Positions 929-20,691 of a stretch of 23,472 nucleotides of DNA are shown here, in pieces. Every line of letters begins with the position of its first letter. Position 1 is the stretch's first letter. The notes beneath the pieces are model-generated. The model was given only the letters and a program-made list of their open reading frames with translations. It did not search any database and was not told the DNA's origin. The DNA is from Sedimentisphaerales bacterium (GTDB lineage Bacteria > Planctomycetota > Phycisphaerae > Sedimentisphaerales > SG8-4), in contig JAFGJR010000186.1 of assembly GCA_016928975.1 (NCBI GenBank), positions 1 through 23,472 on the forward strand. The letters are read 5' to 3'. Made by a program: the position numbers and the translations under genes.

Positions 929-2197
929 ATGGACACTATTTCATTCGGCCCGGAGCCAACGGGGGTCAGCCCGAAACTGCCGCTGCCTTTTCGCTGCGCA
1001 AACTGGGTCGGTGACTCCCTACGCCGGCGGGACCTTCCGATTGGCGAATTGTCCGAAGAGGCAGCCCATCGCTCGGCCATCAGGACAACGGGCCTGAGTG
1101 ACTTCGGCGATCCTTACTATCGCGAGGGGTTGCACCGGCTGCTCGAATCCCTCGAGAGGGAGGCGCATCTGCATTTCTTGGGCCGACTCATCGTGCGAGC
1201 TGCAGTCGAGCTCAATCTTGCCAAGAGATTGTGGCTGACCGAGGCGGTCGGGACGCATACCGAGGTCTTCCGGGAGCCGCTCAGATCGCCGATCGTCGTG
1301 ATCGGTCTGCCCCGCACCGGTACGACGTTCCTGCATCGTATGCTCGCTGCCGATCCCGCCAGTCGCGCGATTCCTATGTGGGAACTGATGCGACCGCTTC
1401 CGAACAGGCGCATCGCATCCGGCTGGAAAGCCAGTCGTTGGTACCGTCGCTACGCCGCAAAGGGCCAGATGGGCTTGTGGCCCTGGCTTGCCGGACGGGC
1501 GGATCGCAAGCATTACATCCGCGCGGACACGCCCGAGGAATGCATGTACCTCTTGGACGCCACATTCGTGAGCCTCGGTTTCTGGGTGGTCGCGCCGGTG
1601 TACGGATACCTTCAGTGGTACAACGACCACGATCGGCTCAAGCCCTATGCGGAATACCGGCAGATGCTGCAGGCGATTCAGGCGGCAGATCCCGGCCTGC
1701 GCCTCACCCTCAAGGCGCCTGCACACACCGGCTCGCTCGATGCACTGTTGGACGCTATGCCGGAGGCGCTGATCGTGCAGACTCACCGCGACCCGGTGGC
1801 TGCCTGCAAGAGCTTCAACAGCCTGCTGTACACGACCCACAGCGCCGTCAGCGACCGGATAGACAGGAAGGCAACGGCTTTGGCGAATCTGAGATTCCTG
1901 GCCAACGAGGCGCGGCGGAACCTTGCTGCACGCGACACCCGACCGAACACCGTTCTCGACGTTCATTACTCCAGACTCGTGACAGATCCGATTGGCACGG
2001 TGAGGAGCATTTATGAACGCTTCGGTCTGGGCTGGTCTGACGCGTTTGAGGCGAATCTGACCCGCTACGTCGGTCACAACCCCAAGGGCGCCCGTGGCGA
2101 CCATGAGTACGACTCCGCAGCATTCGGTCTCACCGACAGGCAGATCGCCGAGCAGTTCAGCGACTACTGCCGACGATTCGAACTCGCAAGCGAGTAG
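929..2197 (+). CDS. PAPS-dependent sulfotransferase (Sulfotransfer_3-like)
   Basis: Likely transfers the sulfuryl group of PAPS to a hydroxyl or amine of a small molecule, lipid or glycan in the cytoplasm. The 422-residue protein has the 5'-phosphosulfate loop GLPRTGTT at about 126-133 and the 3'-phosphate-binding HRDPVAACKS at about 286-295, both intact. The N-terminal helical part (about 58-120) is also typical of the bacterial Sulfotransfer_3 family. I chose ATG 929. An in-frame TTG at 911 would add six residues, and neither start has a clear Shine-Dalgarno sequence. The stop lies 5 bp before the TauE/SafE start, so the two form an operon. The convergent neighbours make PAPS from sulfate, which fits the assignment. 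The acceptor cannot be read from sequence. Confidence 0.92.
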   Translation: MDTISFGPEPTGVSPKLPLPFRCANWVGDSLRRRDLPIGELSEEAAHRSAIRTTGLSDFGDPYYREGLHRLLESLEREAHLHFLGRLIVRAAVELNLAKRLWLTEAVGTHTEVFREPLRSPIVVIGLPRTGTTFLHRMLAADPASRAIPMWELMRPLPNRRIASGWKASRWYRRYAAKGQMGLWPWLAGRADRKHYIRADTPEECMYLLDATFVSLGFWVVAPVYGYLQWYNDHDRLKPYAEYRQMLQAIQAADPGLRLTLKAPAHTGSLDALLDAMPEALIVQTHRDPVAACKSFNSLLYTTHSAVSDRIDRKATALANLRFLANEARRNLAARDTRPNTVLDVHYSRLVTDPIGTVRSIYERFGLGWSDAFEANLTRYVGHNPKGARGDHEYDSAAFGLTDRQIAEQFSDYCRRFELASE

Positions 2198-2202
2198 ACA
2201 CC

Positions 2203-3069
2203 ATGATGAAGAAAGACATCCTTACCTGCGGACTACTCGGAGGGCTGCTGGCAGGTTTCGTCGGGATTGTCGTGGTTAATTCCGGGGCAATCACGCCCGA
2301 CCTCGTGCACATCGGCTCCTTAGGGTGGTTCGCAATCCTTGGCGTGGCGTTCGTGACAGGTTACCTCGACACCTGCGTGGGGGGCGGCCATGGAACAATG
2401 CTTACGCCCACGCTCATTCTGCTGGGTTTTCCTTCCAAGATGGTCGTGCCTGCGATCCTCTTGTCCGAGATTGGCATTGGCATTCTCGCAGCCATCCTGC
2501 ACCGCCGTGCTGGCAACATCCGCCTGGCGCGCGGCGAGCAGCACAGGCGCGTGCTCCTCGTGCTTTCGGCATGTTCACTTGTCGGGTCTATCATCGCCGT
2601 GACCGCGGCCGTGAAGCTCCCACAGAGGTGGGTGAATCTGTACATCGGATTGATGATCGTAGCTGTCGGTCTGTTGCTGGCGACCGGATGGCGGTCGAGG
2701 CGTGGTTTTTCCATGAGACGTATCATCGTCCTGGGAACGGTCGCGGCCTTCAACAAGGGCATCTCCGGCGGCGGATACGGCCCGCTTCTGACCGGCGGTC
2801 AAGTCCTATCCGGGATCAATGAAAAAGGGGCCGTGAGCATCACTCCGTTGGCCCGCGGCCTGACCGGCTTGATCGCGGTCACACTGTACTTCGCAGCCAA
2901 GGGTGCGCTCGAACCCGCCCTGGCCTTGCCGCTCGTCATAGGGTCCCTGCTGGCGATTCCCGTAGCGGTCTTTACCGTTACCAGCGTCAACGCCGGTGTG
3001 CTTCGGAAAGGCATTGTCGCGACCATACTGATCCTCGGCGTCCTGCTTGTGGTCAGGGCATTGCGTTAG
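2203..3069 (+). CDS. TauE/SafE family membrane transporter (sulfite/sulfate-type anion)
   Basis: This is a 288-residue, very hydrophobic protein with about eight membrane-spanning stretches. It has the two homologous halves of TauE/SafE: a first repeat with GYLDTCVGGGHGTMLTPTL near residue 52 and a second with NKGISGGGYGPLLTGGQVL near residue 183. Family members move sulfite, sulfoacetate or other sulfur-containing organic anions across the inner membrane, and the direction is often unknown. Here it sits 5 bp downstream of a sulfotransferase and tail to tail with the PAPS-synthesis genes. It may therefore import sulfate or sulfite for activation, or export a sulfonated or sulfated product; both are inference. 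ATG 2203 is chosen; a second ATG follows directly. Confidence 0.88.
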   Translation: MMKKDILTCGLLGGLLAGFVGIVVVNSGAITPDLVHIGSLGWFAILGVAFVTGYLDTCVGGGHGTMLTPTLILLGFPSKMVVPAILLSEIGIGILAAILHRRAGNIRLARGEQHRRVLLVLSACSLVGSIIAVTAAVKLPQRWVNLYIGLMIVAVGLLLATGWRSRRGFSMRRIIVLGTVAAFNKGISGGGYGPLLTGGQVLSGINEKGAVSITPLARGLTGLIAVTLYFAAKGALEPALALPLVIGSLLAIPVAVFTVTSVNAGVLRKGIVATILILGVLLVVRALR

Positions 3070-3074
3070 ACCTG

Positions 3075-4931
3075 TCACGATCTGCAGCGGCCTTTCAGTC
3101 CAAGATGGTCAGTCACTCGACCGGCGCATTCCTCAGGGGACATCGTCGCGGTCCGGAGGTGCAGGTCGGGCTGCTTGGGCGGCTCGTAGGGGGATGATAT
3201 GCCGGTGAAATCGGGCAATTGGCCGTTGCGCGCTTTGGCGTAGAGGCCTTTCGGATCACGGGACTCGCAGATGTCCAGCGGGGCATCTATGAATACCTCG
3301 ACGAAGCGGTCGGGCCCGATGGTGGACCTGGCTGTAGCCCGGTCCTCGCGGAATGGAGAGATCAAGGCCACGATCACAGTTACGCCTGCATCGTTCATGA
3401 GCTTGGCCACTTCAGCGGTGCGCCGGATGTTCTCCGAGCGGTCCTCGCGCGAGAAGCCCAGGTCACGGTTGAGGCCTTCGCGCAGGACATCGCCGTCCAG
3501 CACATAGCAGGGGCGCTCCTGTTCGGCAAGTTGAGTCATCAGCAGAGAGGCTACCGTGCTTTTGCCCGATCCGCTCAGACCCGTCAGCCAAATGGTCACA
3601 GCCTTCGGACAGACGGCCCGCTCGCCGTGGTGGTCGGCCGACTGCACGGTCCCAGGCTGCTTGGCTGCCCGCTCGATCACCAGGCCCACCCCCACGGTCT
3701 CGTTGGTCAGCGGGTCAATCACGGCAAACCCGCCGGTGGCCCGATTCCGCTGGTACTCGTCGCACAAGAGGGGACGAAACAGATGCACATCGACGCGGCC
3801 GATCTCGTTGAGGCCGAGCGTAGGCGCCGGCTCCCGGTGCAGGTTGCTGGGATTTACACGGTAGTGCAGATTGGCGAAGGTCCCTTTGACCGTATGGGTC
3901 GTATGTTTGATCAGATAGGGCTTGGCCAGCAGGCACGGCTTCTCGTGCATCCAGATCAGCATGGCCTCGATCTCCCCGGCCACGTGAGGCTGGTTTTTTG
4001 GATGCACCAGCATGTCGCCGCGGGAAAGATCGATCTGACGGTCCAGGACGAGGGCGATGGCCTGGGGTGGAAAGGCGTAGTCGACCGGGCCGCTCGCGCT
4101 CAGTATGGACTGCACCTTCGCGCTATGCCGCGAAGGCAGCGCCAGGACCTCATCGCCGACTCGGACCAGGCCGGACAGCACGGTGCCTGCATAACCTCTG
4201 AAGTGCGAGCCCGGGCGCAGGACCAGTTGGACCGGGAAGCGGAAGTCCACCATGTTCCGCGAAGAGCCGACATAGAGGGACTCCATGTAGTCCAGCAGGG
4301 TAGGCCCTGCATACCACGGCATCCGGGCACTCTTCTGCACCACGTTGTCGCCACAGAGCGCGCTTACAGGGATACACGCGAGGCTCGAAATCCTCAGGCG
4401 CGAGGCAAAAGACTTGTACTCCTCGCTGATCTCGGCGAAGACCGCCTCCGAGTACCCCACCAAATCCATCTTGTTGACCGCCAGCAAGATATGCGGCACG
4501 CCGAGCAGCGAAGCGATGAAGCCGTGGCGCTTGGACTGCGTGGTCAGACCCCTATCGGCGTCGAGCAACAGGACCGCCAGTTCCGCGGTGGATGCGCCTG
4601 TGACCATGTTTCGCGTGTATTGCTCGTGGCCGGGGGTGTCGGCCAGGAGGAATCGGCGCTTGGCGGTAGCGAAGGTGCGATAGGCCACATCGATGGTGAT
4701 CCCCTGTTCTCGCTCGGCCTTGAGGCCGTCGGTCAGGAATGCCAGATCGGCCTCCTGGCGGTTGAGCCGTCTGGAGTCTGTCTCCAGCGTTGCCAAGTGG
4801 TCCGTACAGACCACCTCGCAGTCCACCAGGAGTCTGCCGATGAGCGTGGACTTGCCGTCATCGACGCTGCCGACGGCGGCCAGACGCAGGAGGTCGGGGA
4901 TCTGGGCGATAGCCTCGGAACCTGCTCCCAT
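3075..4931 (-). CDS. cysNC: bifunctional sulfate adenylyltransferase subunit 1 / APS kinase (CysN-CysC fusion)
   Basis: This 618-residue enzyme performs two steps: GTP-driven ATP sulfurylase with CysD (sulfate + ATP to APS), then phosphorylation of APS to PAPS. The N-terminal EF-Tu-like GTPase has G1 GSVDDGKST (21-29), G3 DTPGHE (98-103) and G4 NKMD (153-156), followed by beta-barrel domains. From about 444 there is a complete APS kinase with P-loop GLSGSGKS (451-458), DGD (479-481), GLNRDLGFS and DPKGLYAKAR. Nothing essential appears lost. The frame is open further upstream, but the ATG at 4931 aligns with the family and shares one base with the cysD stop (TAATG), indicating translational coupling. 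Its stop is only 5 bp from that of the convergent transporter gene. Confidence 0.96.
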   Translation of the reverse strand: MGAGSEAIAQIPDLLRLAAVGSVDDGKSTLIGRLLVDCEVVCTDHLATLETDSRRLNRQEADLAFLTDGLKAEREQGITIDVAYRTFATAKRRFLLADTPGHEQYTRNMVTGASTAELAVLLLDADRGLTTQSKRHGFIASLLGVPHILLAVNKMDLVGYSEAVFAEISEEYKSFASRLRISSLACIPVSALCGDNVVQKSARMPWYAGPTLLDYMESLYVGSSRNMVDFRFPVQLVLRPGSHFRGYAGTVLSGLVRVGDEVLALPSRHSAKVQSILSASGPVDYAFPPQAIALVLDRQIDLSRGDMLVHPKNQPHVAGEIEAMLIWMHEKPCLLAKPYLIKHTTHTVKGTFANLHYRVNPSNLHREPAPTLGLNEIGRVDVHLFRPLLCDEYQRNRATGGFAVIDPLTNETVGVGLVIERAAKQPGTVQSADHHGERAVCPKAVTIWLTGLSGSGKSTVASLLMTQLAEQERPCYVLDGDVLREGLNRDLGFSREDRSENIRRTAEVAKLMNDAGVTVIVALISPFREDRATARSTIGPDRFVEVFIDAPLDICESRDPKGLYAKARNGQLPDFTGISSPYEPPKQPDLHLRTATMSPEECAGRVTDHLGLKGRCRS

Positions 4932-5926
4932 TAGAAGTAGCCCTCTCGCTTCTTCTGTTCCATGGAGGCGTCCTGATCGTGGTCGATCAGGCGGCTGGAC
5001 CGCTCGCTCGTCCGGCTGACGGTCATCTCCCGGACGATCTCGTCCACGGTCGCGGCGGTGGATCGCACCGCACCGGTGCAGGGATAGCACCCGAGGGTCC
5101 GGAAACGGCAGAGAACGGTCTGAGGCTGCTCTCCGGGTCCCAGACGCATGCCGGGAACGTGGGGGATCAGGTGGCCGTCCCGGACGACCATAGAACGCTG
5201 AGCGGCAAAGTACATCGGCACCACGGGAATGCCCTCCAGAGCGATGTACCGCCAGACATCGAGCTCGGTCCAGTTGGACATGGGGAAGACCCGCATGGAC
5301 TCACCCCGGTTGATGCGCCCGTTGTAGATCGCCCAGACCTCGGGGCGCTGGCGGCGCGGGTCCCACTGGCCCTGCGCGTCGCGGAACGAGAACACCCGTT
5401 CCTTGGCCCGGGATTTCTCCTCATCGCGCCGGGCGCCGCCCAGTGCGGCGTCGAATCCACCCTCGCGGACGGCATTGAGCAGGGCCTGTGTCTTAAGTAG
5501 GCTGCAACACTTCACCGTGCCCAGGTCCCACGGATTGGCGCCGGTGGCCAATGCATCGGTGGGCTGATACACGCGCAGGTCCGCTCCTATGTCCCGGCAG
5601 AACTCGTCCCGGAAGGCATACATCTCGGGAAACTTCAGGGTCGTGTCCACATGCAGCAAAGGGAAGGGGATCCTGCCGGGCGCAAATGCCTTTCTGGCAA
5701 GGTGCACCAGTACGGAGGAGTCCTTGCCCACTGAATACAGGATCACGGGCCGCTCGAACTCGGCAGCAACCTCCCGTATGATGTGGATGCTCTCTGCTTC
5801 GAGCTGCCTCAGACAGTCTAAGTGATAGGCCTCTGCTGAACACACAATGCGATTCACATACTCTTCGGCAGAGGTGTTGTCAACCGCTGATTGCGGGCGT
5901 GACAGGCACAAGCTCGCCTCGGTCAT
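4931..5926 (-). CDS. cysD: sulfate adenylyltransferase subunit 2 (CysD)
   Basis: Catalytic subunit of ATP sulfurylase, 331 residues (typically about 300). It contains the PP-loop SVGKDSS at about 65-71, the family signature [43 protein letters not shown], and the conserved C-terminal [11 protein letters not shown] segment. The frame remains open about 200 nt upstream, into the preceding gene. The ATG at 5926 is preferred because it forms a 4-nt ATGA overlap with the stop of the upstream SDR gene. cysD and cysNC are therefore translationally linked to the SDR, tying sulfate activation to the tailoring genes upstream. Confidence 0.95.
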
Positions 5927-6933
5927 CGACGATTCGCCTCGAGTTGGCCCAGGTACCACTCGACGGCGCATCGCACTCCCTCCTGGTAGGACGTCTTCGG
6001 CGACCACCCAAGCTCCCGACGTATCTTGTCGGTGGGGAAGAACACCCGCCTGCCGAGAATCCAGACACTGTGTCTGGTGATAGACGGCGCGTGCCTGAAC
6101 CGAAACAGGCGTCCGATGCACTCGCACACGAACCCGGCGGTCATAGCCAAGCGATAGGGGACCTTTCGCTGAGGAGGCGAGCAGTGAAACTCTTCGGCCC
6201 AGAGGCCGAGAAAATCCTCTTGTGTAATCGGTCTGCCGTCGGCGCAGTTGTACGCTTGCCCGATGGCTCGCTCATTTTCCGCCGCCATTAGGCAGGCACG
6301 GGCCAGGTCTCCCGCGAAAACGGCATGGAAAGCGTTGTTGCCGTCACCAAGAACAGCGATTCGGCCACCGGTAAGCAAGCGATGAAGCCGCGGTGCAATC
6401 ACATGATCGCGAGGACCGTAGATCCAGGACGGCCTGATTACGGTCAGAGGCAGTCCCTGTTCTTCGTACAGTCTCCAGAGGACGTGCTCCGCCTGGGTTT
6501 TGGCGCGGCCGTAGTAGCTCCAGCGATACAGGTGCCTGCCGAGCGGTGCGGTTTCGTCGAGGATGGCATCGTCGCCGGTGATGTTGCCGTAAGCGCCTAT
6601 GCTGGAAACGTGAACGAAGCGACGAACGGACGCCTGCAGCGCCGCGCGAGCCACATTCCGCGTTCCCTCAATCGTGTTTCGGTGGAACTGCGCCCACGGT
6701 CCCCAATCACTCACCTCCGCGGCAGCATGGTAGACAACCTCGATTCCTTCGCAGGCGCGCTCCAAGCTTGCCTGGTCGGACAAGTCTCCCACCGCCTTCT
6801 CGACCGGCAGGGTGTCCAAGAAGGCCGTGTCAGAGGTGGGCCGCACGAGAGCACGCACCCGTTGGCCGCTCTGCACGAGTTGTTCGACAATGTGACTGCC
6901 CAGGAATCCTGTGGCGCCGGTGACGAGTCTCAC
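5923..6933 (-). CDS. NAD(P)-dependent extended SDR (epimerase/3-beta-HSD-like)
   Basis: A 336-residue oxidoreductase or epimerase. The N-terminal Rossmann fold has TGATGFLG at 5-12, VSS at 109-111, and the catalytic YGRAK (Tyr141, Lys145). The segment [14 protein letters not shown] and a C-terminal [13 protein letters not shown] motif are typical of the 3-beta-hydroxysteroid dehydrogenase/dihydroflavonol reductase branch. Substrate class is therefore open: sterol-like, polyketide-like or sugar. The GTG start at 6933 is supported by GGAAAGG seven bases upstream; an upstream extension has no comparable site. It is coupled to cysD by an ATGA overlap. A gap of 138 bp separates it from the GH3 gene and shows no terminator-like structure to me. 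Confidence 0.9.
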
Positions 6934-7071
6934 TGATCGACCTTTCCACACAACCGCTTTTTCATCCCGCCTAAGATACCCGCTTGGGAGGCCTGCCGCC
7001 AAGTGACATCCCGGCAAAAGGCAATCTTCTATGCGGCGGGACGCCCGCCTGAAGGTCAAGCGTGCGATTCG

Positions 7072-8814
7072 CTACGGCTTGACGCTGTCACCCGCCTGTA
7101 ACTCCTGCAGATGGACGCCGGGATCGAAAGGTGTGTTGTGCAGAAAGCAGTGTTTGAACTGCTCGCTGCGCCCTCGCCGCGCCAGGATCAGTTGTCGATC
7201 GACGCGTGTCAATTCGTTGTTCTCCAGACGTCGGACAGTCAGGGGGCCGATACGACGACTCTTGCGCTTGGAGGCATACTCGATATTGCCCGTCTGGAGC
7301 AGGTCGTCGATTCTTCGCGCCAGCGCCTCAAGCGTGCCGCCCGGGTCCTTTGCATGTGATTCGAGATACAGCACGTAGAACGGAGGCTCCCCCAGAACCG
7401 GGGCGAGCGTGTACGTATCCGACGCGAGGTTCGCTCCGTCGAGCGCCACATTCACCGCCGTGACCACTTGATGTTCGGTGAGCTTCTCTCCGGTCACGCT
7501 GCACACGTGGGCGCCTCGGGACACGAACTCAATCACTGCGGCCGAGCCTATCGAGCCTGTGACACGGACGACATCGCCAATGTGGTAACGGTATAGGCCG
7601 GCCCGATTGGTCAGGAAAAGGTAGTACAGACGTCCCTTCTCCAATTGGTCCGCCCGGAGAACCATCGGGCCGCTGGGCAGCGTCGCGGCTTCGTCGGGCA
7701 GGTTGAGTCCGTGAATCTCTTCTTCCGGGACGAACTCATAGAAATTCGCTTCAATGTCAAGTACGCCGGCCGCCGTACCGTCCTCCAGGGGAATGCTCAT
7801 GCGTCCCTCACTGGCCAGCAGGCCGATGTCACGAATGCGCACGTCTCCATAGTACTGCTTGACACGGGGCAGATAGCATCCCACCGTGCCTCCGGTCCAA
7901 TGGGCCAGCAAGGCCGGTCTCCAGTAGTGCTTCGGCAGCAGGCAGCCATGCTCGTTCAGCAGACGCTCCAGTTGGCGGCTGCGGCTGGGATTGGGCGTTA
8001 GGCGACGCGCCAGGCGCAGCCGGTGCTTGGCGGGCAGTTCACGGTCGGTATCGATGGTCCCATCGTGAATCTCGCGAATCATCTGTCCAGCACGCTCGTT
8101 GGCGGTCTGTGCCAAGGCCACCAGCGTGCTGGGATTGGCCGAGGCGATCAGGCGGACGTCCTCGGGCATAGAAAAACGCATCGTTGCATAGTAACGCAGG
8201 AGGGGATCGCCGATGCAGAACACCTCCGCCGGAACGGAGTAGAGCTGCCGGACTATCCATTTCTGTTGTTGTGCGAGCATGCCCGAGATCGCGCCGCACG
8301 GATACCCTCCGGCGGTCCGCTCCTCCTCGGCCGGACTGCTGGCGTGCAGCACCTTGCCCAGGAACATCTCAGGATGGTCCTGCATTGCCTTGATGCCCCA
8401 GACATTCCAACCACGGCGGTATTGTGCGATATAGTCAGCAGTCACCGGTATGTACTTGACCGGCCCCGTCGTGGCAGACGTCAAAGCGAACATCAGTAGT
8501 TTCTGTGACGGCCCGAGCAAGGCCCGGCTGTCGCCTTGACGACAGCGGTCAATGTATGGCGCGAAATAGGAGAATCGTGCCAGCGGCAGCGTGTTCACAA
8601 AGTCTGCATACGAGCGAATGCGATCGAAACGGTGATGCCTGCCGAAGTCGCTATCCTGATTCGTGCGGATAGCGTGCATCAGCATCTCGTCCTGGACACG
8701 GCGACATCGTTCCAGGGTCCCCTCGAATCGTCGCCATTGCCAAGCGGCATGTTTGGTGGCCACGTAGCCGACCGTTCGCATCATGGCCTGGTATACTCTA
8801 CCGTTCGGTGACAC
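7072..8814 (-). CDS. GH3 family acyl-adenylating ligase
   Basis: GH3 enzymes, best known in plants, adenylate a carboxylic acid and join it to an amine, usually an amino acid. Bacterial roles are largely unknown. Motifs from the GTG start: nucleotide loop TSATTGPVK (112-120), SEGR (335-338), NFYEF (357-361), YRYHIGDVV (408-416) and GEKLTE (442-447), all in the family order in about 580 residues. The loop has Ala where Gly is usual (SGTTG). Start is uncertain: GTG 8814 has AGGAGG 11 bases upstream; ATG 8838 and ATG 8784 are alternatives. It overlaps the end of the hydrolase gene by 17 bp with the chosen start, so the two are coupled. Confidence 0.88.
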   Translation of the reverse strand: MSPNGRVYQAMMRTVGYVATKHAAWQWRRFEGTLERCRRVQDEMLMHAIRTNQDSDFGRHHRFDRIRSYADFVNTLPLARFSYFAPYIDRCRQGDSRALLGPSQKLLMFALTSATTGPVKYIPVTADYIAQYRRGWNVWGIKAMQDHPEMFLGKVLHASSPAEEERTAGGYPCGAISGMLAQQQKWIVRQLYSVPAEVFCIGDPLLRYYATMRFSMPEDVRLIASANPSTLVALAQTANERAGQMIREIHDGTIDTDRELPAKHRLRLARRLTPNPSRSRQLERLLNEHGCLLPKHYWRPALLAHWTGGTVGCYLPRVKQYYGDVRIRDIGLLASEGRMSIPLEDGTAAGVLDIEANFYEFVPEEEIHGLNLPDEAATLPSGPMVLRADQLEKGRLYYLFLTNRAGLYRYHIGDVVRVTGSIGSAAVIEFVSRGAHVCSVTGEKLTEHQVVTAVNVALDGANLASDTYTLAPVLGEPPFYVLYLESHAKDPGGTLEALARRIDDLLQTGNIEYASKRKSRRIGPLTVRRLENNELTRVDRQLILARRGRSEQFKHCFLHNTPFDPGVHLQELQAGDSVKP

Positions 8815-9802
8815 GTGTGGCACGACCTCCTGAATCATGCGAAGAGACCCCCGCGATCCACTCGGACAAGTCCTGGAAGAAAGTCTCTCTCTCAGGGCTG
8901 AATTCGAGAATGTGCGTGGCGTTTGTGTAGGTTGCCAGCTTCTTGTGGGCCGCCGGGATTCTGCGGAAAAACGTTTCATTCTTGCGGTTATGGGATATGC
9001 GGTCCTTTCCGGCCAGAGCCATGAATACAGGAGTGTATAAGCGCGAGGCCTTGGCCGCCAAGAGAAGACGTGCCCGAAATATCTGGTAGTAGGAAGTTGC
9101 CGTCAATTCGTCCAGTGAAAGAGAGTCCTGCCGAATGAAGCTGCGGTAGGCCGGCAGCTCCGTCAGCAAATCCGTCGGGAACGGGATGGGGAGGTAGCGC
9201 ATCGAGTTGCGGAGACGAGACACGGCAACGGCGGCCTTGTCTGCCAGAGGGACAGTCACGCGCGTATACAGAGCAGGTGTCGCAAGAATCAAAGAGGCGA
9301 GAATCGCCGGGTGGTCGCAGGCAAAAAGGACGGCGGCAATCGCACCGAAGCAGTGCCCGACGATGTGGACTTGTCCTGCTCCATGCCGCTTGGCGGCGTG
9401 CTGCACGACGTGGCCGATATCGTCGGCGATCTGCCGGAAGCTTGCCGCATGGCCCCTCTGCTGCCGGCTCAAGCCGGAACCCCGCCGGTCAAGAGCGTAG
9501 ACGGGGCAGCCCAAGCTCGCGATGTGACACGACGATTGAACGAACCAGCCTGAATGGCTCTGCAGCCCGTGGAGCAGGACCACCGGTGTGCCGGTACCGC
9601 TGCTGCCAAACGTGCGCACCGGCAGCCGGACACCGTCAGAGGCCGTGAGGTACTCGAGCTCCCCCTGCTTCCAGGCCGTCACCATCTCCGGCGGACCGGG
9701 ACAGACACCGACCGACTTAGCCACCGGGACCTCGTTGCGACGCACGGTTGTCCCGCCGTCACCGGAGTCAGGAAGACCATTCTCATTCGTGAGAGTCGTC
9801 AC
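8798..9802 (-). CDS. alpha/beta hydrolase with Cys nucleophile
   Basis: This 334-residue alpha/beta hydrolase-fold enzyme is likely cytoplasmic; I see no signal peptide. It has the oxyanion region LLHGLQSHSGWF (77-88), the nucleophile elbow GHCFGA with Cys151 in place of the common Ser, Asp267 in AGKDRIS, and His297 in NATHILEF, a plausible Cys-Asp-His triad. Cys nucleophiles occur in dienelactone hydrolases, PHA synthases and some thioesterase domains that perform acyl transfer or beta-lactone formation, so it may release or transfer an acyl group. Start choice: GTG 9802 has an AAGGGA-like site 10 bases upstream. TTG 9826 would overlap the upstream stop as TTGA, and ATG 9685 would remove a poorly conserved N-terminus. 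Confidence 0.85.
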   Translation of the reverse strand: MTTLTNENGLPDSGDGGTTVRRNEVPVAKSVGVCPGPPEMVTAWKQGELEYLTASDGVRLPVRTFGSSGTGTPVVLLHGLQSHSGWFVQSSCHIASLGCPVYALDRRGSGLSRQQRGHAASFRQIADDIGHVVQHAAKRHGAGQVHIVGHCFGAIAAVLFACDHPAILASLILATPALYTRVTVPLADKAAVAVSRLRNSMRYLPIPFPTDLLTELPAYRSFIRQDSLSLDELTATSYYQIFRARLLLAAKASRLYTPVFMALAGKDRISHNRKNETFFRRIPAAHKKLATYTNATHILEFSPERETFFQDLSEWIAGVSSHDSGGRATRVTER

Positions 9803-9822
9803 GGTACCTGGGTCCCTTCTTC

Positions 9823-11013: not shown

Positions 11014-11889
11014 TCATGGCGTCGAACGTCCGCAGCGGATGATTTCGAGCAGGTTTCCTCCGAGGATACGCTGCTGGTCCGCTTCCGAGAGCCCCAGCCT
11101 TTGGATGCGTGAAATCTGCCGGCTGCGGTTGATGTGGCCGTATGGCCCATCGGTCCCCCAGACGCACCGTCCCGGCCCCATGGCCTTGACTGCCTGCGAC
11201 AGCAGGGCCGCGTTGACGTACATGGCATTGGACAAGTCGATCATGACATTGTCTCTGCCTGCCGCAAATTCCCAGACCTCACGATAGAAAGGCACGCCCG
11301 CGTGCGCGTATAAGATCTTGAGCCGACTGTGTCGCGCGGGAAGACAGCGATAGTCGCCTGTTTCCGCGTCGCCTCCCAGATGAATCAGCAGAGGCCAGTC
11401 CCGCTCCTGGCACCATCGCGCCGTTTCGTCCAGCGCTGAGACCGGGTAACGATGCCAGAACGGATGGGCCTTCACACCGATCCAGCCGGGACGACCGGCC
11501 CGGCTTTCGAGCTCAGCGATCGGGTCGGCCGCACGCGGGTTGACGAACACCCAGCCATAGAACCTGTCGGGGTGCGCCTCCAGGACGCGGCCCACCGCCG
11601 CGTTGTCCGGCACGGGGCAGAGCGAATACTGGCGGGCCAGCACCATACAGGTGTCCTTGGAAGTCACAGTGCCGCGGTAAAAGAACAAACCGACGGGACG
11701 CAGCTTGCCGGCGAGCATGCGGGTCATCAGTCCTGCCAGCGTCTCGGCCGTCGCCGTCAGCTTCAGCGAAACAGCGATGGCGGCGATCAGGCACGTGCGT
11801 TCCACGCCGCTCGCGTCCATCTCGGCCAGCAAGGTGTCCACAGGTTGCAGTGGCTCGTCAAGATGATAGTGAGCGTCAACGATCATCAC
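11014..11889 (-). CDS. amidohydrolase-2 family metal-dependent TIM-barrel hydrolase
   Basis: A 291-residue cytoplasmic enzyme of the PF04909 type, which includes decarboxylases and lactone hydrolases acting on carboxylated or aromatic substrates. Visible metal and catalytic residues: His7-x-His9 (DAHYHL), Lys140 and His142 (VKAHPFW), His170 (LLIHLGG), His196 (YAHAGVPF) and Asp247 (WGTDGPYG). The start is GTG 11889 directly followed by ATG 11886; either is possible and no strong ribosome site is seen. It begins 10 bp after the methyltransferase stop and is followed 33 bp later by the enolase-superfamily gene, so it lies within the same operon. Confidence 0.9.
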   Translation of the reverse strand: MMIVDAHYHLDEPLQPVDTLLAEMDASGVERTCLIAAIAVSLKLTATAETLAGLMTRMLAGKLRPVGLFFYRGTVTSKDTCMVLARQYSLCPVPDNAAVGRVLEAHPDRFYGWVFVNPRAADPIAELESRAGRPGWIGVKAHPFWHRYPVSALDETARWCQERDWPLLIHLGGDAETGDYRCLPARHSRLKILYAHAGVPFYREVWEFAAGRDNVMIDLSNAMYVNAALLSQAVKAMGPGRCVWGTDGPYGHINRSRQISRIQRLGLSEADQQRILGGNLLEIIRCGRSTP

Positions 11890-11899
11890 GGGTCAAGCG

Positions 11900-12700
11900 T
11901 CACGGTTTCACGAATGACAGCGAATAGAACCTGCCGTTCCATACTTCCTCGCACTTGATGTCTCTCATGCGACGGGGAACGAGCTCCACCGGGGCCCTCA
12001 GGGCCTCGCGATCTTCGCTCTTGAACGTTCCCCGGGCCACCGGTGTCCTTTCGTAGCTCTTTCGCACGTGTTCTTCCGTCTCATCGACAATGAGGATTCT
12101 GGCGCCGGGCCTCGCCACCCGAATGAGTTCATCGATCGCGGCCTGCTTGTCGCGGAAGAAGTTGAACCCACCCACGGTAAAGGCCACGTCAAAGCTCTCA
12201 TCCCTGAAGGGCAGAGCTTCCGCCTCCGCCAGGGACAGACAGACCTCACGTCCGATGCGCCGGGCGCGGCGCCGGCAGCGACATAGCATGTTCCAGGAAA
12301 TGTCGATTCCATAGTAAGGCATGTTGCGAGGCAGAATGAGAAGGTTCAGACCGGTGCCTATACCTACCTCCAGGGCCCGATCGTTGGCGCCGATTGGGCC
12401 TGCTTGTTGAGAGAGTTCCGCCCGTGCGGCGCGCCACCCTTTCTTGCGCACCAGGCTGGCGGTTGCGGTAATGTACAAGTCGTAAAAGAGAGCGATCTTG
12501 TCGTAGAACTGCTGGTACTTTCGATTCGAACCCTGTAAGGCTTCCTTGCTAGTGAAGATGGGGATGCCGTTTCGGATCGGGTATCCATGCTCCCCGCCGT
12601 CCGGCCAGAGGTACTCACAACCGTCCTTGGACAGACGTCGCAGGGATGCGCCGGTCCGCGGGTCGCACATGGCTTCAGGTACTTCGCCGTTCATCGACAT
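11900..12700 (-). CDS. Trm112-like/SAM-dependent methyltransferase fusion
   Basis: A 266-residue class I methyltransferase. The first about 50 residues resemble a Trm112/YcaR-type domain (CDPRTG, then YPIRNGIPIF at 40-49), often fused to small-molecule or lipid methyltransferases. The SAM-binding motif I is LEVGIGTG (110-117), followed by GIDIS and an acidic PFRDESFDVAF motif II-like stretch. The frame is open 60 nt upstream; ATG 12700 with GAGAG a few bases before it is preferred, and a second ATG lies two codons on. It is probably the first gene of the operon running to cysNC, since 378 bp without a gene separate it from the beta-propeller gene. Substrate unknown. Confidence 0.88.
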   Translation of the reverse strand: MSMNGEVPEAMCDPRTGASLRRLSKDGCEYLWPDGGEHGYPIRNGIPIFTSKEALQGSNRKYQQFYDKIALFYDLYITATASLVRKKGWRAARAELSQQAGPIGANDRALEVGIGTGLNLLILPRNMPYYGIDISWNMLCRCRRRARRIGREVCLSLAEAEALPFRDESFDVAFTVGGFNFFRDKQAAIDELIRVARPGARILIVDETEEHVRKSYERTPVARGTFKSEDREALRAPVELVPRRMRDIKCEEVWNGRFYSLSFVKP

Positions 12701-12884
12701 AATCTCTCTACAGGCCAAACGACGTCCTCGGGATACGGCCGCCAGGCCTTGCCCCTGCAAGTCATCTTCGCACCGAACTCAGTCTTCAACGCCCCGATCG
12801 CCTACAGCAGAAAGCGATGGAGCCGCCGGCTATGGTGCCACGCTTCTTGAACAGACGCAAGCGCCAATTCCCTGGCCACTCCGT

Positions 12885-12902
12885 ATGAGTGCATAGACTC
12901 AT
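12885..12902. promoter_or_regulatory. dyad-symmetric site, possible operator
   Basis: ATGAGT, six bases, ACTCAT form a perfect 6-bp inverted repeat in the gap before the methyltransferase-led operon. The size suits a dimeric repressor site, but no regulator gene is in the window and chance is possible. Confidence 0.25.
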
Positions 12903-13055
12903 GCGGGTGCAACACGGATTAGGAAGAGTTCATAGGTCGCATCGCACTGAGTGCGGCACATCGAATGGAGTTGCTGGGGGGCAATTGGTTCCAGGCGGCC
13001 CCACAAGGGTCGAACAGATCATCGTAATCCTCGGTCGCGAACCCTCGGAATCAGA

Positions 13056-13069
13056 CGCGCGGCCGCGCG
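13056..13069 (-). terminator. GC-rich palindrome after the beta-propeller gene
   Basis: A 14-nt perfect palindrome (CGCGCGGCCGCGCG) begins about 10 bp past the beta-propeller stop codon. It could end the ankyrin/propeller transcript, but no T-run follows, so intrinsic termination is doubtful. Confidence 0.25.
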
Positions 13070-13078
13070 GCCGGGCCT

Positions 13079-14152
13079 CTACTGGCTGCTCTTACGGATC
13101 GGCACCCAGTCGGGTTCCTTGTTGTGTTTGCCATCGGTGGTGACTTGGACCCACTTGCCCGTCAGGTCACCGACGCAGATATTCCAGCCCGGGGCCTTGA
13201 CGCCAACGGAGTAGTTCACCGCGGGGCCATAGCCAAAGGCAAGGTAGCGGCCGTCGGGTGAGAGTTCGGAGTGAGTGACATAGTACTCATTGGCACACTT
13301 GACCGCGCAGCGAATATCACCGACCCGGGGCACCGCCAACGCTAGATCGATGTCGGCCACGTACAGGTCCCAATCGGTCTTGCCCCAGGCGATCTTCTTA
13401 CCGTCGGAACTGAGGTCCGGCCGGCAACCGTCGATCCCGTACTTGTGGAGATCGAATACACCATCGCCCTCGGCTTCGAACGCAATGATCGAATGATCGA
13501 AACCCATGCCACCCGTCACGGTGGCAACCAGCCATCTCCCGTTGGGCGACCAACAGACGTTGTAGAGATGGTGCAGGTCCCGGTTAGGATGCGTCCGGTG
13601 GCTTGCCGTCTCCACGTCATAGAAGAGCAGCTCCTTGGAAGCGAAGGCCCGGGCGGAATAGCGGTCGTATTCCCCCTTGACGTAGGCAATCACTTTCCCA
13701 TCCGGACTCCAGCACGGCTGTCGGGCGTTGTCGGCAACCTTCACTCGACCCGTCCCGTCGACGTTCATGTAATAGACGTTTCGAACCTTGCCGTCTTCCC
13801 CTGTCTCGTCCGCCACAAAGCATATCTTGGTGCCGTCGGATGAGACATGGGGATACATTTCATCCACCTCGGGCGTCTGCGTAAGGTTGGTGGAGTGGGT
13901 ACCATCGGCATTCACGATGTACAGCTCCCAGTTCTCCTTGCCCTCCGTCTCGCGGTAGGTTTCGTGGACGATCTTGAATGGGATCGCCTCCAGATCGATC
14001 TCGGATCTGTCGCATGGTTGTTGCGGCAGTTGCGTCTCGACGGGGGGCGCGGATTCGGCAGCCGCCTCACCAAAGGCCAAAGTGCACGGCCACAGGAATA
14101 ATGGAATACCAAGGCACAACACCTGCACCCCGTTGCCAAGTATCTTTCTCAT
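13079..14152 (-). CDS. secreted PD40/TolB-like beta-propeller protein
   Basis: A 357-residue protein with a signal peptide at 1-28 (MRKIL..., hydrophobic core, cleavage near AFG-EA). It has several TolB-type blades marked by ELYIVNADGT, VSSDGTKICFVAD, YYMNVDGTG, CWSPDGKVIAYV, CWSPNGRWLVA, DLSSDGKKIAWG and LSPDGRYLAFG. Such propellers are protein- or ligand-binding scaffolds in the periplasm or outside the cell. It lacks the N-terminal TolB domain, so it is not proposed to be TolB of the Tol-Pal system. The start at ATG 14152 is set by GGAGAG six bases upstream and by the signal peptide. It lies 49 bp downstream of the ankyrin gene and is likely co-transcribed with it. Confidence 0.88.
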   Translation of the reverse strand: MRKILGNGVQVLCLGIPLFLWPCTLAFGEAAAESAPPVETQLPQQPCDRSEIDLEAIPFKIVHETYRETEGKENWELYIVNADGTHSTNLTQTPEVDEMYPHVSSDGTKICFVADETGEDGKVRNVYYMNVDGTGRVKVADNARQPCWSPDGKVIAYVKGEYDRYSARAFASKELLFYDVETASHRTHPNRDLHHLYNVCWSPNGRWLVATVTGGMGFDHSIIAFEAEGDGVFDLHKYGIDGCRPDLSSDGKKIAWGKTDWDLYVADIDLALAVPRVGDIRCAVKCANEYYVTHSELSPDGRYLAFGYGPAVNYSVGVKAPGWNICVGDLTGKWVQVTTDGKHNKEPDWVPIRKSSQ

Positions 14153-14201
14153 AGTGCGCTCTCCTTGTGTTTGCGGCGATATGGTGTCGATGCGCGTTCT
14201 G

Positions 14202-16964: not shown

Positions 16965-17445
16965 TTCTGGTCCCCTTCACGAAAGCGGATGTTGACAATC
17001 AACAACACGTCTTCTGATCGGTCGTTCGCTCCGTGCGAACGTCCGGCCCCACCATGGCACCGCCGAAAACAGTAATACGCCGACACTCAGATGCCGGTGA
17101 GGGACACCTGCAAGACCTGGTCATGCAGACGGAGACAGTATAGGGCCGCAGAATGGGCCGCTCAAGTCTTTGGCTGGATTCAGTGATGCGTGGGTTGCGG
17201 GCACGGCGAGGGAGGAGGAATTGATGGGTCCAGATCGTGTTCTCAGCCACTCTTTTGTCCGTCGATAGTCTCATTTGCCCTTCTGCAAAGCCAGGCGCCA
17301 CCCACGGTCGAAGCGGGCCGAGACCCACAGGTGTTTCCGGGACCCTCGACTCGATGGGCTTCAGTGGGGAAATCATGCCAGGAAAACCGAAACCTGCGCT
17401 CGGCAGGCCGCAGACGAGCGACTGCTGAGATGATATGAATCGGGG
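16965..17445. other. intergenic region upstream of the ankyrin gene
   Basis: No supported gene. It includes a short dyad TGTTGA-CAA-TCAACA at 16990-17004, only 26 bp before the ankyrin start codon, and ends in the palindrome over the ligase stop codon (17440-17456). I see no clear promoter. Confidence 0.5.
16990..17004. promoter_or_regulatory. short dyad in the leader of the ankyrin gene
   Basis: TGTTGA and TCAACA flank a CAA loop, just upstream of the ankyrin ribosome site. It could be an operator or small mRNA hairpin; chance is a fair alternative. Confidence 0.2.
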
Positions 17446-17456
17446 TCAGACCCCGA
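17440..17456. repeat. 17-bp palindrome spanning the acyl-ligase stop codon
   Basis: TCGGGGT-CAG-ACCCCGA forms a 7-bp stem with a 3-nt loop. On the ligase strand the TGA stop codon lies in the loop and the last codons form the left arm. The shape recalls REP-like palindromes; it could also act as a 3' hairpin stabilising the mRNA. It is followed by only scattered T bases. Confidence 0.6.
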
Positions 17457-19044
17457 GCGGCTTGGCGGCCGGAGCAACGGGACCGGCGAGGTGTCTTCGG
17501 TCGATCTTGCCGTGGATAGTCCGGGGCAGGCTCTCCACTACCTCGACGGATCGGGGGACCATGCGGGGGGGCATGTTCTCTCTGCAGAATCGCAGCACAT
17601 CCTGTTCGGTGACAGCCGCATCCGGAGCGGCCACGACGAAGGCCATGATCGCTTGGCCGAGGACTTCATCGTCAACACCGACCACGGCTGCTTCGGCTAC
17701 ACCCGACAGCGCGCAGATGATGTTCTCTACCTCCTTGGGGCTGATGCGCTCGCCGCCGCTCTTGATCATGTCGTCCTTCCTGCCGACGAAATAGAGAAAG
17801 CCCTGCTCGTCTCGGCGGAAGTAGTCTCCGCAATGAAGTGTTCGGTCGGCCGGGTAGCGGCCCTCGTGGTAGGTCTTGCGCGTCGTCTCCGGGTCGTTCC
17901 AATAGCCCTGCATGACGTTCGAGCCGCGGACGATCAGCTCGCCGGTCTCTCCCGCAGGCACCTCGTGGCCCGTGGGATCGACGATGAAGACCTCGCAGTT
18001 CGGGATGGCGTGGCCGACCGAGCGAGGTTTGGCGTCGATATGCTCGGGCGGAAGGTAGGCGGTGCGTTTGCACTCAGTCAGGCCGAACATCGAGAAGATC
18101 CGCACCCAGGGAAAGGTGCTGCGCAGGGCCGCGATGTGCTTTTCCGGCAAGGCTGCACCGGTGTTGGTCATGTACCTGAGCGTGCCGAGATCGTATTTCC
18201 CGAAATCCCTCGTCCTTAGCAGTATAGCGACGATCGTCGGCATGACGGGGAAGCCGGTCACGCGGTGTCGCTCGATACTCTGGAGTATCTCATGGGGAAA
18301 GAGAAACGACTTCTCCAGCACGACCGTGCCGCCAAACATGAAAGCCATGATGACTTGGTAGAGACCGTAGTCGAACGACAGAGGCAGAACGTTCAGGATG
18401 ATATCGTCTTCGCTGTTGTTGATGTACTGGATGATGCTGCGGGCCGCTGAGACCATGTTATGGTGGGTGCTGACAACGCCCTTTGGCGCGCCGGTCGTGG
18501 CGGAGGTGTAGATGAGCGCGGCCACGTCCACATCGATGGTGCGCGGCAGCTTGCTCGGGGTCGAGGCGTCGACCGCAGCGAACAGAGAGTCCCAGGTAAC
18601 GGAGACGCTCCTGAGGCTGGGAGGGATATCATGCTCCGGACCGACCCAGACAATCCGACCGCCGGTTTCGAGACCGGCGACGGAATCGAGGACCACGCTC
18701 GCCTTGCTGGTATGCGTGATGAGGAGGCGCGCACCCGAGTCGGCGAGGACGTACTTGAGCCTGTGACTCTTGACGCCGCCGTCGGCGATCACGAAGGCCC
18801 CGCGCGCCTTCAGAATGCCGTAGAGCGATACGACGGTTTCGGAGCTGTTGTCCAAGAAGATGACGACTCGGTCCTGGCACTGCATACCCATCGCCAGCAG
18901 GGCCTGGGCCAGTCGGTGCGAACGATCGTCGAGTGCCCGGTACGTCCAGCGCTGAGGTCCGCATATCAGGGCATGTTTATCGGGAAATCGGTGGGCCGAG
19001 CGAGACAGCCAGTCGTGGACAAGGACAGGGTCGAACTCAATCAT
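17446..19044 (-). CDS. AMP-dependent acyl ligase (ANL superfamily)
   Basis: A 532-residue enzyme that activates a carboxylic acid as acyl-AMP and loads it on CoA or a carrier protein. Motifs in order: A3 YTSATTGAPKG (179-189, with Ala for the usual Gly), A5 FGLTECKRTAY, A7 HCGDYFRRDEQGFLYFVGRKDDMIKSGGERISPKEVE across the domain hinge, and A10 PRTIHGKIDRR with the catalytic Lys513. The protein is full length. The start ATG 19044 has AGGTG five bases upstream. The nearest gene upstream on the same strand is a stand-alone acyl carrier protein, suggesting ligase-to-carrier loading. It resembles the acyl-CoA ligases found with carrier proteins in exosortase clusters, but no exosortase is present. 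The acid substrate is unknown. Confidence 0.93.
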   Translation of the reverse strand: MIEFDPVLVHDWLSRSAHRFPDKHALICGPQRWTYRALDDRSHRLAQALLAMGMQCQDRVVIFLDNSSETVVSLYGILKARGAFVIADGGVKSHRLKYVLADSGARLLITHTSKASVVLDSVAGLETGGRIVWVGPEHDIPPSLRSVSVTWDSLFAAVDASTPSKLPRTIDVDVAALIYTSATTGAPKGVVSTHHNMVSAARSIIQYINNSEDDIILNVLPLSFDYGLYQVIMAFMFGGTVVLEKSFLFPHEILQSIERHRVTGFPVMPTIVAILLRTRDFGKYDLGTLRYMTNTGAALPEKHIAALRSTFPWVRIFSMFGLTECKRTAYLPPEHIDAKPRSVGHAIPNCEVFIVDPTGHEVPAGETGELIVRGSNVMQGYWNDPETTRKTYHEGRYPADRTLHCGDYFRRDEQGFLYFVGRKDDMIKSGGERISPKEVENIICALSGVAEAAVVGVDDEVLGQAIMAFVVAAPDAAVTEQDVLRFCRENMPPRMVPRSVEVVESLPRTIHGKIDRRHLAGPVAPAAKPLGV

Positions 19045-19713
19045 CAGTACACCTGTAGCGTTTCATCAAGTGGCTGGTCACGGGTATACGACAGAATCAT
19101 GGCACACGTGTGGCAGCCTCAAGACGTAGCGTAGCGAAGCCTTGGGGATGGCCGGGTGGGTTGATCGGTGGGCTGCGAGAATCCCCTGCCGACGGAACCA
19201 TCCCCAAAGCTTCGGCTTTGAGGCTGCCACGCACTGTGCGATTTCTGGGAATCGCCACTTTCTTGTCGTGCACCCCTGGTTACTGGTTACAGCCCTGGCC
19301 GGACACAGCCCGACGATGCCGTAAAGATAATCGGTCAGTTCGGGACACGACTTTGTCGCGCAGGCGACATCATTCGCCGGAGGCCGGGTCTTCGGCCTGA
19401 GCCGCACATATAGGACGTGCCCATACCGCGGTCTCTCCGACGGAGCCAAAGACGCAGGCATGTCCCACCGGTCGGGCACAGTGAGAACATCCGGCGCGAC
19501 ATCCTCCCGAGATCTCTGAGATTCTGCCGATACGTCCGTTAACGTCGTTCCAGGACGGCTTTGCGCGACGCCGGCCGGGATTCGGGTTAACCTCAAGGTT
19601 CGTCTTACCGATAAGCCTGTCTGAGTCGCCTGCCGGAGGCTCGTGCGCCCAACGAGACGGAACGGTCCTGCCTCTCCGGGCAAGCATTCAGGTAGTGTCG
19701 GTGGGTCCAGTTC
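19045..19713. other. intergenic region containing a large imperfect inverted repeat
   Basis: The divergent gap between the acyl ligase and the acetyltransferase. Open frames here have no domain or ribosome site. The main structure is the inverted repeat at 19111-19229, annotated separately. Confidence 0.5.
19111..19229. repeat. imperfect inverted repeat with nested UUCG hairpin
   Basis: The left arm (19111-19151) and the reverse complement of the right arm (19198-19229) both begin TGGCAGCCTCAA and both end with a CGAAGC...TTGGGGATGG block. They flank a 46-bp spacer, and the left arm carries about 9 extra bases in the middle. The right arm itself contains CAAAGC-TTCG-GCTTTG, a 6-bp stem with a stable tetraloop. 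No transposase is inside or beside it, so it could be a non-autonomous element such as a REP pair or MITE, or a structured RNA. Confidence 0.7.
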
Positions 19714-20298
19714 ATGATGAGCATGCAACATGTCAGACGCCAAGTTAGAAGCATCAGAGTCTGTTTTGAGAACTCCCTGTTGAACGCTCTCCCAGACTGG
19801 TCGTTGTGCAGTCGGTTCTTGCGTCCCTTCCTGGCCACGGCTCTGGGAATGAAGTGTGGACGCCGAACATTCTTGAGAAAAGGCAACTACTACGGCGACC
19901 TGAAGAACATTGACATCGGCGACGGGACCCGCATAAACCGGGACGTCTTCTTCGACGCGCTGGACAGAATAACGCTGGGGTCCAATGTGTTCGTCGGTTT
20001 TCAGGCATCATTCATCACCAGCGCGCACGAGGTCGGCGACGCCAGGAAACGCTGCGGGGCCTTGTACGCACGGCCCATTGTTGTCGAAGACGGGGTTTGG
20101 ATAGGAGCCTGCGCCAAGATCGGGCCGGGAGTCACGCTGGGGGCGGGAAGCGTGATATCGGTAGGAGCTGTGGTGATGCGAAGTGTCCCTGCCAACAGTG
20201 TCGTCGCGGGCGTGCCGGCGCGTGTCGTCATGCGACTGGAGGGAGGTGAAGACAGTCAAGTGTCCGATGGGTGGACCTCAGTTGAACAACCGGTGTAG
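19714..20298 (+). CDS. left-handed beta-helix (hexapeptide) O-acetyltransferase
   Basis: A 194-residue member of the maltose/WcaF-like acetyltransferase group that moves acetyl or another acyl group from CoA to a sugar or natural-product hydroxyl. The hexapeptide coils run from about 62 (IDIGDGTRINRDV, ITLGSNVFVG) to about 177 (IGPGVTLGAGSVISVGAVVMRSVPANSVVAGVPARVV). His105 in SAHEVGD fits the catalytic His. The N-terminal helix LLNALPDWSLCSRFLRPFLATALGMKCG is typical of this branch. ATG 19714 is used; no strong ribosome site is seen. It is the only plus-strand gene between the acyl ligase and the carrier protein, converging on the latter. Confidence 0.88.
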   Translation: MMSMQHVRRQVRSIRVCFENSLLNALPDWSLCSRFLRPFLATALGMKCGRRTFLRKGNYYGDLKNIDIGDGTRINRDVFFDALDRITLGSNVFVGFQASFITSAHEVGDARKRCGALYARPIVVEDGVWIGACAKIGPGVTLGAGSVISVGAVVMRSVPANSVVAGVPARVVMRLEGGEDSQVSDGWTSVEQPV

Positions 20299-20397
20299 AG
20301 CAAGGCCTGCGGTGGCAACCTACGGCTTCGATGCAATAACCTACGCGCGTTGTCTGCAGGTGAATCCGTTCCTTCGGTTGGCGAGATGACGCCGTTC

Positions 20398-20691
20398 TCA
20401 AGACTCGCCCGGAAGAGGCCCTGTCCCCGATGTGCTGAACTCCGGCGAGCAACCAAGTTTCACCTGAAGGTAGCGGGCCACGCTGCGCAGGCTGTCGAGG
20501 TTCTCACGCACAACCTCCTCATCAGCGACCGTGATGCCATAGTTGGCCTCGAGGAACGTGATGAGCTCCAGCATTCCCGCGGAGTCGATGACGCCCTCTT
20601 CAAGAAACGAGGTCTCGTCTCCAAGCCAACTGCCGTCCCCAAAGAGGAAGGTGTCCACTACAAATCGCCGGATCTCTGCCGTGTCGACCAT
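20398..20691 (-). CDS. acyl carrier protein (stand-alone)
   Basis: A 97-residue carrier protein that tethers acyl groups on a phosphopantetheine arm. The attachment motif is EEGVIDSAGMLEL with Ser37, followed by helix II (LITFLEANYGITV) and the EEVVRENLDSLRSVARYL helix III region. A short tail (SPEFSTSGTGPLPGES) beyond the fold is unusual. ATG 20691 is preferred; the frame is open ten codons upstream with another ATG at 20721. It is probably the partner of the acyl ligase about 1.35 kb downstream on the same strand. It is too divergent from fatty-acid AcpP (no DSLD motif) to be the housekeeping ACP. Confidence 0.85.
   Translation of the reverse strand: MVDTAEIRRFVVDTFLFGDGSWLGDETSFLEEGVIDSAGMLELITFLEANYGITVADEEVVRENLDSLRSVARYLQVKLGCSPEFSTSGTGPLPGES

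Follow-up and report, generated by a model that had tools for sequence, protein, structure and literature searches.

A GH3-family acyl-adenylate/amide synthetase (GH3), an MLE-subgroup enzyme of the enolase superfamily (MLE) and an alpha/beta hydrolase (ABH) make up a conserved gene module, and no description of such a cluster was found in our literature searches. The module was studied in a contig of a Sedimentisphaerales bacterium (Planctomycetota; JAFGJR010000186.1 of assembly GCA_016928975.1), whose 23,472 bases are called the window here. It lies there in a minus-strand run of eight genes (12694→3075) that reads methyltransferase, amidohydrolase-2 protein (AH2), MLE, ABH, GH3, SDR, CysD and CysNC, and a sulfotransferase–TauE pair (929–3069) converges with this run. 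Our preferred reading, to which we give a probability a little under one half (about 0.45), is that the eight-gene operon and the convergent pair represent a conserved GH3–MLE–ABH conjugation core with a sulfation cassette added in the lineage.

Conservation of the GH3–MLE–ABH core

The module is regarded as conserved because neighbour counts, the co-occurrence of GH3 and MLE in 161 genomes and the contig sizes common to the two search lists all agree. Relatives of MLE were sought in genome contigs with the enzyme's own alignment, and the best 80 of 277 were kept; neighbours within 8 kb of MLE were then counted by tblastn at 1e-3, with all 80 loci retained. ABH was found in 52 of these loci and GH3 in 34, with either present in 62 and both in 24, and the other neighbours were less frequent (SDR 8, methyltransferase 4, acyl ligase 3, AH2 1). 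Among the 43 loci that extend at least 3 kb on both sides of MLE, the corresponding numbers are 20 for GH3, 30 for ABH, 36 for either and 14 for both, and where MLE is most similar (21 loci), ABH occurs in 20 and GH3 in 16. Clustering the neighbours without any query gave the same two families as the largest apart from MLE itself (ABH 46/80, GH3 34/80); this clustering used a crude caller of open reading frames (ORFs), which left five loci without an MLE-family ORF, and its Louvain families were annotated from one member each or from none. The titles of the 80 loci come from about a dozen phyla, and those of the MLE-adjacent GH3 proteins name twelve, many of them being labels of metagenome bins. 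A culturable organism that has the core is Desulfosediminicola flagellatus (L011).

The closest relative examined, L002, has methyltransferase, AH2, MLE, ABH and GH3 in the order seen in the window, followed by a different SDR. It is the only one of the 80 loci with AH2 near MLE, and it shares the methyltransferase with three Omnitrophota loci (L021, L022 and L024), which read methyltransferase–SDR–nitroreductase–ABH–MLE–GH3, the nitroreductase being identified by Pfam in L021. In a survey of the order to which the L002 genome belongs (161 genomes), MLE and GH3 were each present in 12 genomes and together in 10, where 0.9 would be expected, with the proviso that hypergeometric values of this kind ignore kinship. 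The two genes are adjacent in six of the ten genomes and on different contigs in four. Moreover, the top lists for GH3 and MLE have nine contig sizes above 4500 in common, compared with 0.2 expected from shifted sizes; MLE row P0182 (9953 bases), which is in neither other list, was left out of this comparison, and sulfotransferase row P0272 has no contig. Two loci of size 9917, L058 and L154, are alike in layout and probably represent one contig.

The initial annotation of this DNA had asked whether GH3, MLE, AH2 and the sulfotransferase keep company in other genomes, and had named scattered genes that are never neighbours as the outcome that would count against a common locus. In the genomes examined, GH3, MLE and ABH are linked, so that scattering does not describe them; it does describe the ligase group and, save for one likely contig of 22555 bases, the sulfation group, and AH2 is a neighbour of MLE in the single case given above. 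A class-wide search of 397 genomes returned a match at E 1e-70 in G001 only.

Three observations on these neighbourhoods are recorded in their own right. A Ser/Thr protein kinase, assigned by Pfam in L018 alone (L018:11164-12633) and by clustering elsewhere, is found near MLE in 15 of the 80 loci, Desulfobacterota and Verrucomicrobiota among them, and could be a regulator. A DUF1571 protein recurs beside GH3 or MLE (L076:9083-9871, by Pfam; L096:2811-3716; clustered relatives elsewhere) and may belong to their pathway. Finally, the MLE relative in L091 (G139:C109) has two in-frame TAG codons, from a broken gene, an assembly error or recoding.

Proposed chemistry of the core

In the window MLE, K173-x-K175, D201, E227, D252 and K279 are invariant among 36 sequences, and we take these residues to be the catalytic set of the MLE subgroup. 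The nearest solved structure, both by profile and by fold, is 2p88, the N-succinyl Arg/Lys racemase of Bacillus cereus, which has the fold and the KxK/D/E/D/K set in common with the window enzyme, as do other N-acylamino acid racemases. Identity over the fold alignment is only 24%, however, and the pocket probably differs; a curated model of a named racemase, DgcA, was not reached (123 bits, cutoff 400), and the literature searches brought up no mention of a GH3 protein as partner of 2p88. ABH carries a Cys in its nucleophile elbow, GHCFG, and its D275 and H305 (numbering of the 342-residue ORF), conserved in 88% and 98% of aligned relatives, are putative catalytic residues.

GH3 carries the motifs SATTGP, LLASEGR and GLYRYHIGD. 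By eye, residues 103, 322 and 396 are the likely counterparts of nucleotide-binding motifs I to III as given for OlsH in the available text of PMC12493201. OlsH is, in the literature examined and as far as that text goes, the sole bacterial GH3 with a tested product, although bacterial GH3 homologues are common (more than 7500 OlsH matches in the same text). The window GH3 is not itself OlsH: it scores 88.2 bits against NF052613, for which the cutoff is 620, and in a tree of 41 GH3 proteins long branches part two over-cutoff OlsH proteins from the rest (100/100; midpoint root). These two references come from G605 and G606, and the G606 copy has a TAG inside the match; seven of the 35 GH3 ORFs from the clustering were dropped from the tree for their length, and L153 (773 residues) was kept. 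No OlsH-family member was found at E 1e-150 in 149 Planctomycetota genomes, but the control was silent too.

The OlsH/OlsG/OlsI ornithine-lipid pathway of Singulisphaera acidiphila, as described in the portion of PMC12493201 seen, is the nearest known counterpart. It too is a planctomycete operon in which a GH3 ligase occurs together with an alpha/beta hydrolase and a methyltransferase; the window operon has MLE, SDR, AH2 and sulfate activation in addition. The window ABH has no significant BLAST match among the ORFs around the over-cutoff OlsH genes in L093 and L094, where the identity of OlsI was not established. Stieleriacine-type N-acyl tyrosines (PMC12479983, seen in part) are likewise planctomycete N-acyl amino acids, and nitroreductases occur both in related N-acyl tyrosine clusters described there and beside some MLE–GH3 loci. 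The makers proposed for stieleriacines, in contrast, are N-acyl synthases, and GH3 is not mentioned in the main text of that article as seen.

The window GH3 groups with those of L002 and of L140 to L145, six GH3s of L002's order (100/100). In these six loci, families annotated as ketosynthase and as a second alpha/beta hydrolase adjoin GH3 in five each, the exceptions, L143 and L142, being contigs of 4.7 and 5.7 kb; methyltransferase (5/6), FabA-like (4/6), aminotransferase (4/6) and acyl carrier protein (ACP; 2/6) families are also present. The annotations are taken from L141, except for the ketosynthase and hydrolase, which are from L076 and L096. This clade likely has an acyl-conjugate pathway of its own. 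Because ketosynthases adjoin GH3 in five of the six loci L140 to L145, and because a ketosynthase pair stands together with MLE in L076 and L051, a dedicated type II synthase may be the source of the acid that GH3 couples; no such synthase was found among the 20 window ORFs scanned with Pfam, a set without the truncated last gene on the right. Taken further, the same observations would allow a cyclised or aromatic polyketide-type product, in which dedicated ketosynthases supply the chain, MLE acts as a cycloisomerase, ABH as a lactone or ester hydrolase, and GH3 activates the acid. We consider this distinctly unlikely: a ketosynthase family was clustered in only 4 of the 80 MLE loci, 2p88 is the top profile match for MLE, and the scanned window ORFs hold neither a ketosynthase nor, as the initial annotation had said, a nonribosomal peptide synthetase or terpene enzyme.

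For the core and its sulfation cassette, our best guess is that GH3 makes an N-acyl amino acid or a related amide, which MLE racemises and which is then tailored and O-sulfated. GH3 would adenylate an acyl carboxylate with ATP and couple it to an amine, an amino acid being the likeliest; MLE would shift the alpha proton of the N-acyl amino acid in racemase-type chemistry; ABH, with its Cys nucleophile, might transfer or trim an acyl group; and the SDR and methyltransferase would tailor the product. CysD and CysNC would convert sulfate to 3'-phosphoadenosine 5'-phosphosulfate (PAPS), from which the sulfotransferase would sulfate a hydroxyl, with TauE moving a sulfur anion. From the gene families we infer all substrates, the amino-acid partner, what AH2 and TauE do and, likewise, the sulfated product, which is plausible. 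More broadly, bacteria of about a dozen phyla could share an undescribed pathway that combines a GH3 ligase with a racemase of the enolase superfamily and an alpha/beta hydrolase of Cys or Ser type, and whose product is an acyl–amino-acid lipid or metabolite of inverted stereochemistry. In one planctomycete lineage this product would be sulfated from an operon-encoded PAPS supply, and sulfated amino lipids of a new class would result. In this full form the proposal is speculative and unlikely. In any case, a second conserved type of GH3 operon, with a racemase-like partner, provides an assayable hypothesis for the products of other GH3s.

The sulfation cassette

The sulfotransferase contains PRTGTTFLHRML and HRDPVAACKS, the 5'-phosphosulfate and 3'-phosphate binding motifs of PAPS sulfotransferases, and its nearest solved chains are 2zq5 and 2z6v. 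CysD has a PP-loop and CysNC has GTPase and adenosine 5'-phosphosulfate (APS) kinase motifs; both genes are intact, and the PAPS supply thus appears complete on paper, in keeping with the initial annotation. From CysNC upwards, the intergenic distances in the run are -1, -4, 120, 13, 137, 33 and 13 bases, of which 120 and 137 depend on the chosen starts; the two negative values are overlaps of CysD, with CysNC (1 bp) and with SDR (4 bp). A promoter scan 5' of the methyltransferase gene found none; the eight genes are presumably one transcript.

The overlaps of SDR, CysD and CysNC count in favour of a link between sulfation and the core, as does the rarity in this group of two genes that stand side by side in the window: CysNC was found at E 1e-150 or better in one of the 161 genomes of the order, and the sulfotransferase at 1e-50 in four of 392 from the phylum, where no CysD or CysNC match lies within the 19–20 kb taken. 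A contig of 22555 bases appears in the lists for GH3 (83%), MLE (82%) and sulfotransferase (82%), the identity of the contig being judged from the coincidence of size only; it is likely a case, the one candidate, of conserved linkage of the sulfotransferase with GH3 and MLE. Short sizes (4058, 3037, 2960 and 2213) are also common to the sulfotransferase and other lists, as expected by chance.

Three results weigh against the link. Within 8 kb of MLE, neither the sulfotransferase nor TauE, CysD or CysNC was matched in any of the 80 loci, and the sulfation genes are accordingly a lineage-specific addition to the conserved core. Elsewhere in the order, CysNC reaches E 1e-150 only in L155 (G128:C50:18500-38400), a polysaccharide locus that also has CysD, TauE, an extra APS kinase, an exosortase, a Wzc-like kinase, a sugar transferase, a glycosyltransferase, a UDP-sugar dehydrogenase, an inositol-monophosphatase-family protein and a heparinase-like protein. 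Lastly, sulfotransferases of PF13469 have been proposed to act also on glycosaminoglycan-like polymers (PMC7356697, in the part seen). The L155 cassette is like that of the window in having CysD–CysNC and a TauE gene without a sulfite-reducing gene among those scanned, but the two TauE genes give no tblastn match at 1e-3, and the window cassette is joined to GH3, MLE and SDR whereas that of L155 is part of an exosortase/exopolysaccharide locus. Because the order's other CysNC is in a polysaccharide locus and PF13469 enzymes have been proposed for polymers, the case for sulfation of the GH3 product rests on gene packing in the window and on one relative.

These points give substance to a serious rival, namely that the genes do two jobs: GH3, MLE, ABH, SDR and methyltransferase would make an unsulfated lipid or metabolite, and CysD, CysNC, TauE and the sulfotransferase would serve the sulfation of an exopolysaccharide whose other genes are elsewhere. 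In G128 the CysNC locus and the GH3/MLE locus (L151) are indeed on different contigs, and in the window an exopolysaccharide-type ligase, ACP and acetyltransferase lie 4.8–8 kb from the start of the operon. Against this, SDR, CysD and CysNC overlap within one run, no glycosyltransferase or exosortase is present among the scanned window ORFs, and the sulfotransferase has apparently been kept with GH3 and MLE on one further contig. On balance we hold this rival to be less likely than our preferred reading. Should the sulfation link of our preferred reading be true, it would mean a bacterial lineage with an in-operon PAPS supply that builds a sulfated acyl conjugate.

A role of CysD and CysNC in sulfate assimilation was also considered, and is rejected as far as the window shows, with no CysH, CysIJ or other sulfite- or PAPS-reducing gene among the scanned ORFs. 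Nor are these genes confined to assimilation loci, an outcome that the initial annotation had set against its proposal: the order has a single further genome with CysNC at E 1e-150 or better, and there CysD and CysNC sit in the exosortase/polysaccharide locus described above and not in an assimilation operon.

The ligase group and the extent of the locus

The initial annotation took the whole stretch from 929 to 20691, the ATG of the sulfotransferase and that of the ACP, to be one locus for a sulfated acyl product, with an acyl ligase and its own carrier protein. Every enzyme family that it named is present with Pfam or NCBIfam support, although its gene list passed over the TolB-like and ankyrin-repeat proteins. 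The proposal of a single product survives in part, since many genomes keep GH3, MLE and ABH as true neighbours and sulfate activation is in the same overlapping run; it fails for the ligase, ACP and acetyltransferase. The ligase comes close to TIGR03098 but does not reach it (490 bits, cutoff 592), and occurs in 33 of the 161 genomes of the order. Of 30 of these with a locus, 14 wide loci were taken: ACP was matched in 10 and the acetyltransferase in one (L156, together with ligase and ACP), and GH3, MLE, CysD and CysNC in none. In L158, the one of the 14 that was annotated in detail, an exosortase and a polysaccharide tyrosine kinase accompany an NAD-synthase-like protein and an amidotransferase of XrtA type (461 bits, under cutoff); the gene families of this locus cluster in other ligase loci too.

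Since exosortase/exopolysaccharide loci are where the relatives of ligase and ACP are found, we exclude this group from the locus; it is most likely a separate system. A single 20-kb locus, with ligase and ACP loading an acyl group for GH3, is thus largely refuted and very improbable, even though all the genes fall within 20 kb and an activated chain could be accepted by GH3 chemistry. The three loci with a ligase match near MLE (L033, L040 and L075) speak for it, as does an overlap of ligase with MLE in 5 of 12 genomes (2.5 expected, P 0.07). Besides the ligase neighbourhoods, two points speak against it: the TolB-like and ankyrin genes intervene between operon and ligase group, and OlsH, in the available text of PMC12493201, needs neither ACP nor coenzyme A. 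TolB-like, ACP and acetyltransferase matches were absent within 8 kb of MLE in all 80 loci.

Features of the window

Table 1. Genes of the window, with families assigned from the ORF list and Pfam/NCBIfam
Feature	Position	Strand	Remarks
Two tRNA genes	left end of contig		
PAPS sulfotransferase (Sulfotransfer_3), 422 residues	929..2197	+	Pfam 2.7e-43; stop 5 bp ahead of TauE
TauE/SafE family permease, 288 residues	2203..3069	+	Pfam 2.7e-23; convergent with CysNC, 5-bp gap
CysNC, fusion of ATP-sulfurylase GTPase subunit and APS kinase	3075..4931	-	NF004035 857 bits, cutoff 715
CysD, ATP-sulfurylase small subunit	4931..5926	-	NF009214 456 bits, cutoff 413
Extended SDR, HpnA/OleD-like but below both cutoffs	5923..6951	-	Pfam Epimerase 6.8e-43; HpnA model 180 bits, cutoff 367.65; putative GTG start
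GH3-family acyl-adenylate/amide synthetase	7072..8784	-	PF03321, PF23571 and PF23572, first at 9.3e-58; start 8784 or 8838
ABH (Hydrolase_4), Cys nucleophile	8798..9685	-	Pfam 1.6e-40; ATG 9685 or TTG 9826
MLE-subgroup enolase-superfamily enzyme, 385 residues	9823..10980	-	Pfam MR_MLE_C 5.1e-39; catalytic residues present
AH2, 290 residues	11014..11886	-	Pfam Amidohydro_2 1e-26
UbiE-like methyltransferase	11900..12694	-	Pfam Methyltransf_11 1.6e-17; first gene of the eight-gene run
TolB-like propeller protein	13079..14152	-	between operon and ligase group
Ankyrin-repeat protein, 920 residues	14202..16964	-	between operon and ligase group
Acyl ligase, AMP-dependent	17446..19044	-	AMP-binding 3.2e-90; excluded from locus
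Hexapeptide acetyltransferase, WcaF-like (under cutoff)	19714..20298	+	Hexapep 3.5e-08; excluded from locus
ACP of ligase group	20398..20691	-	PP-binding 2e-04, 22.0 bits, cutoff 20.8; excluded from locus
Dockerin type I protein, signal-like start	21693..22448	+	

A short Cys-rich reading frame, noticed by eye only, lies 5' of the dockerin protein at about 21141-21370 of the window.

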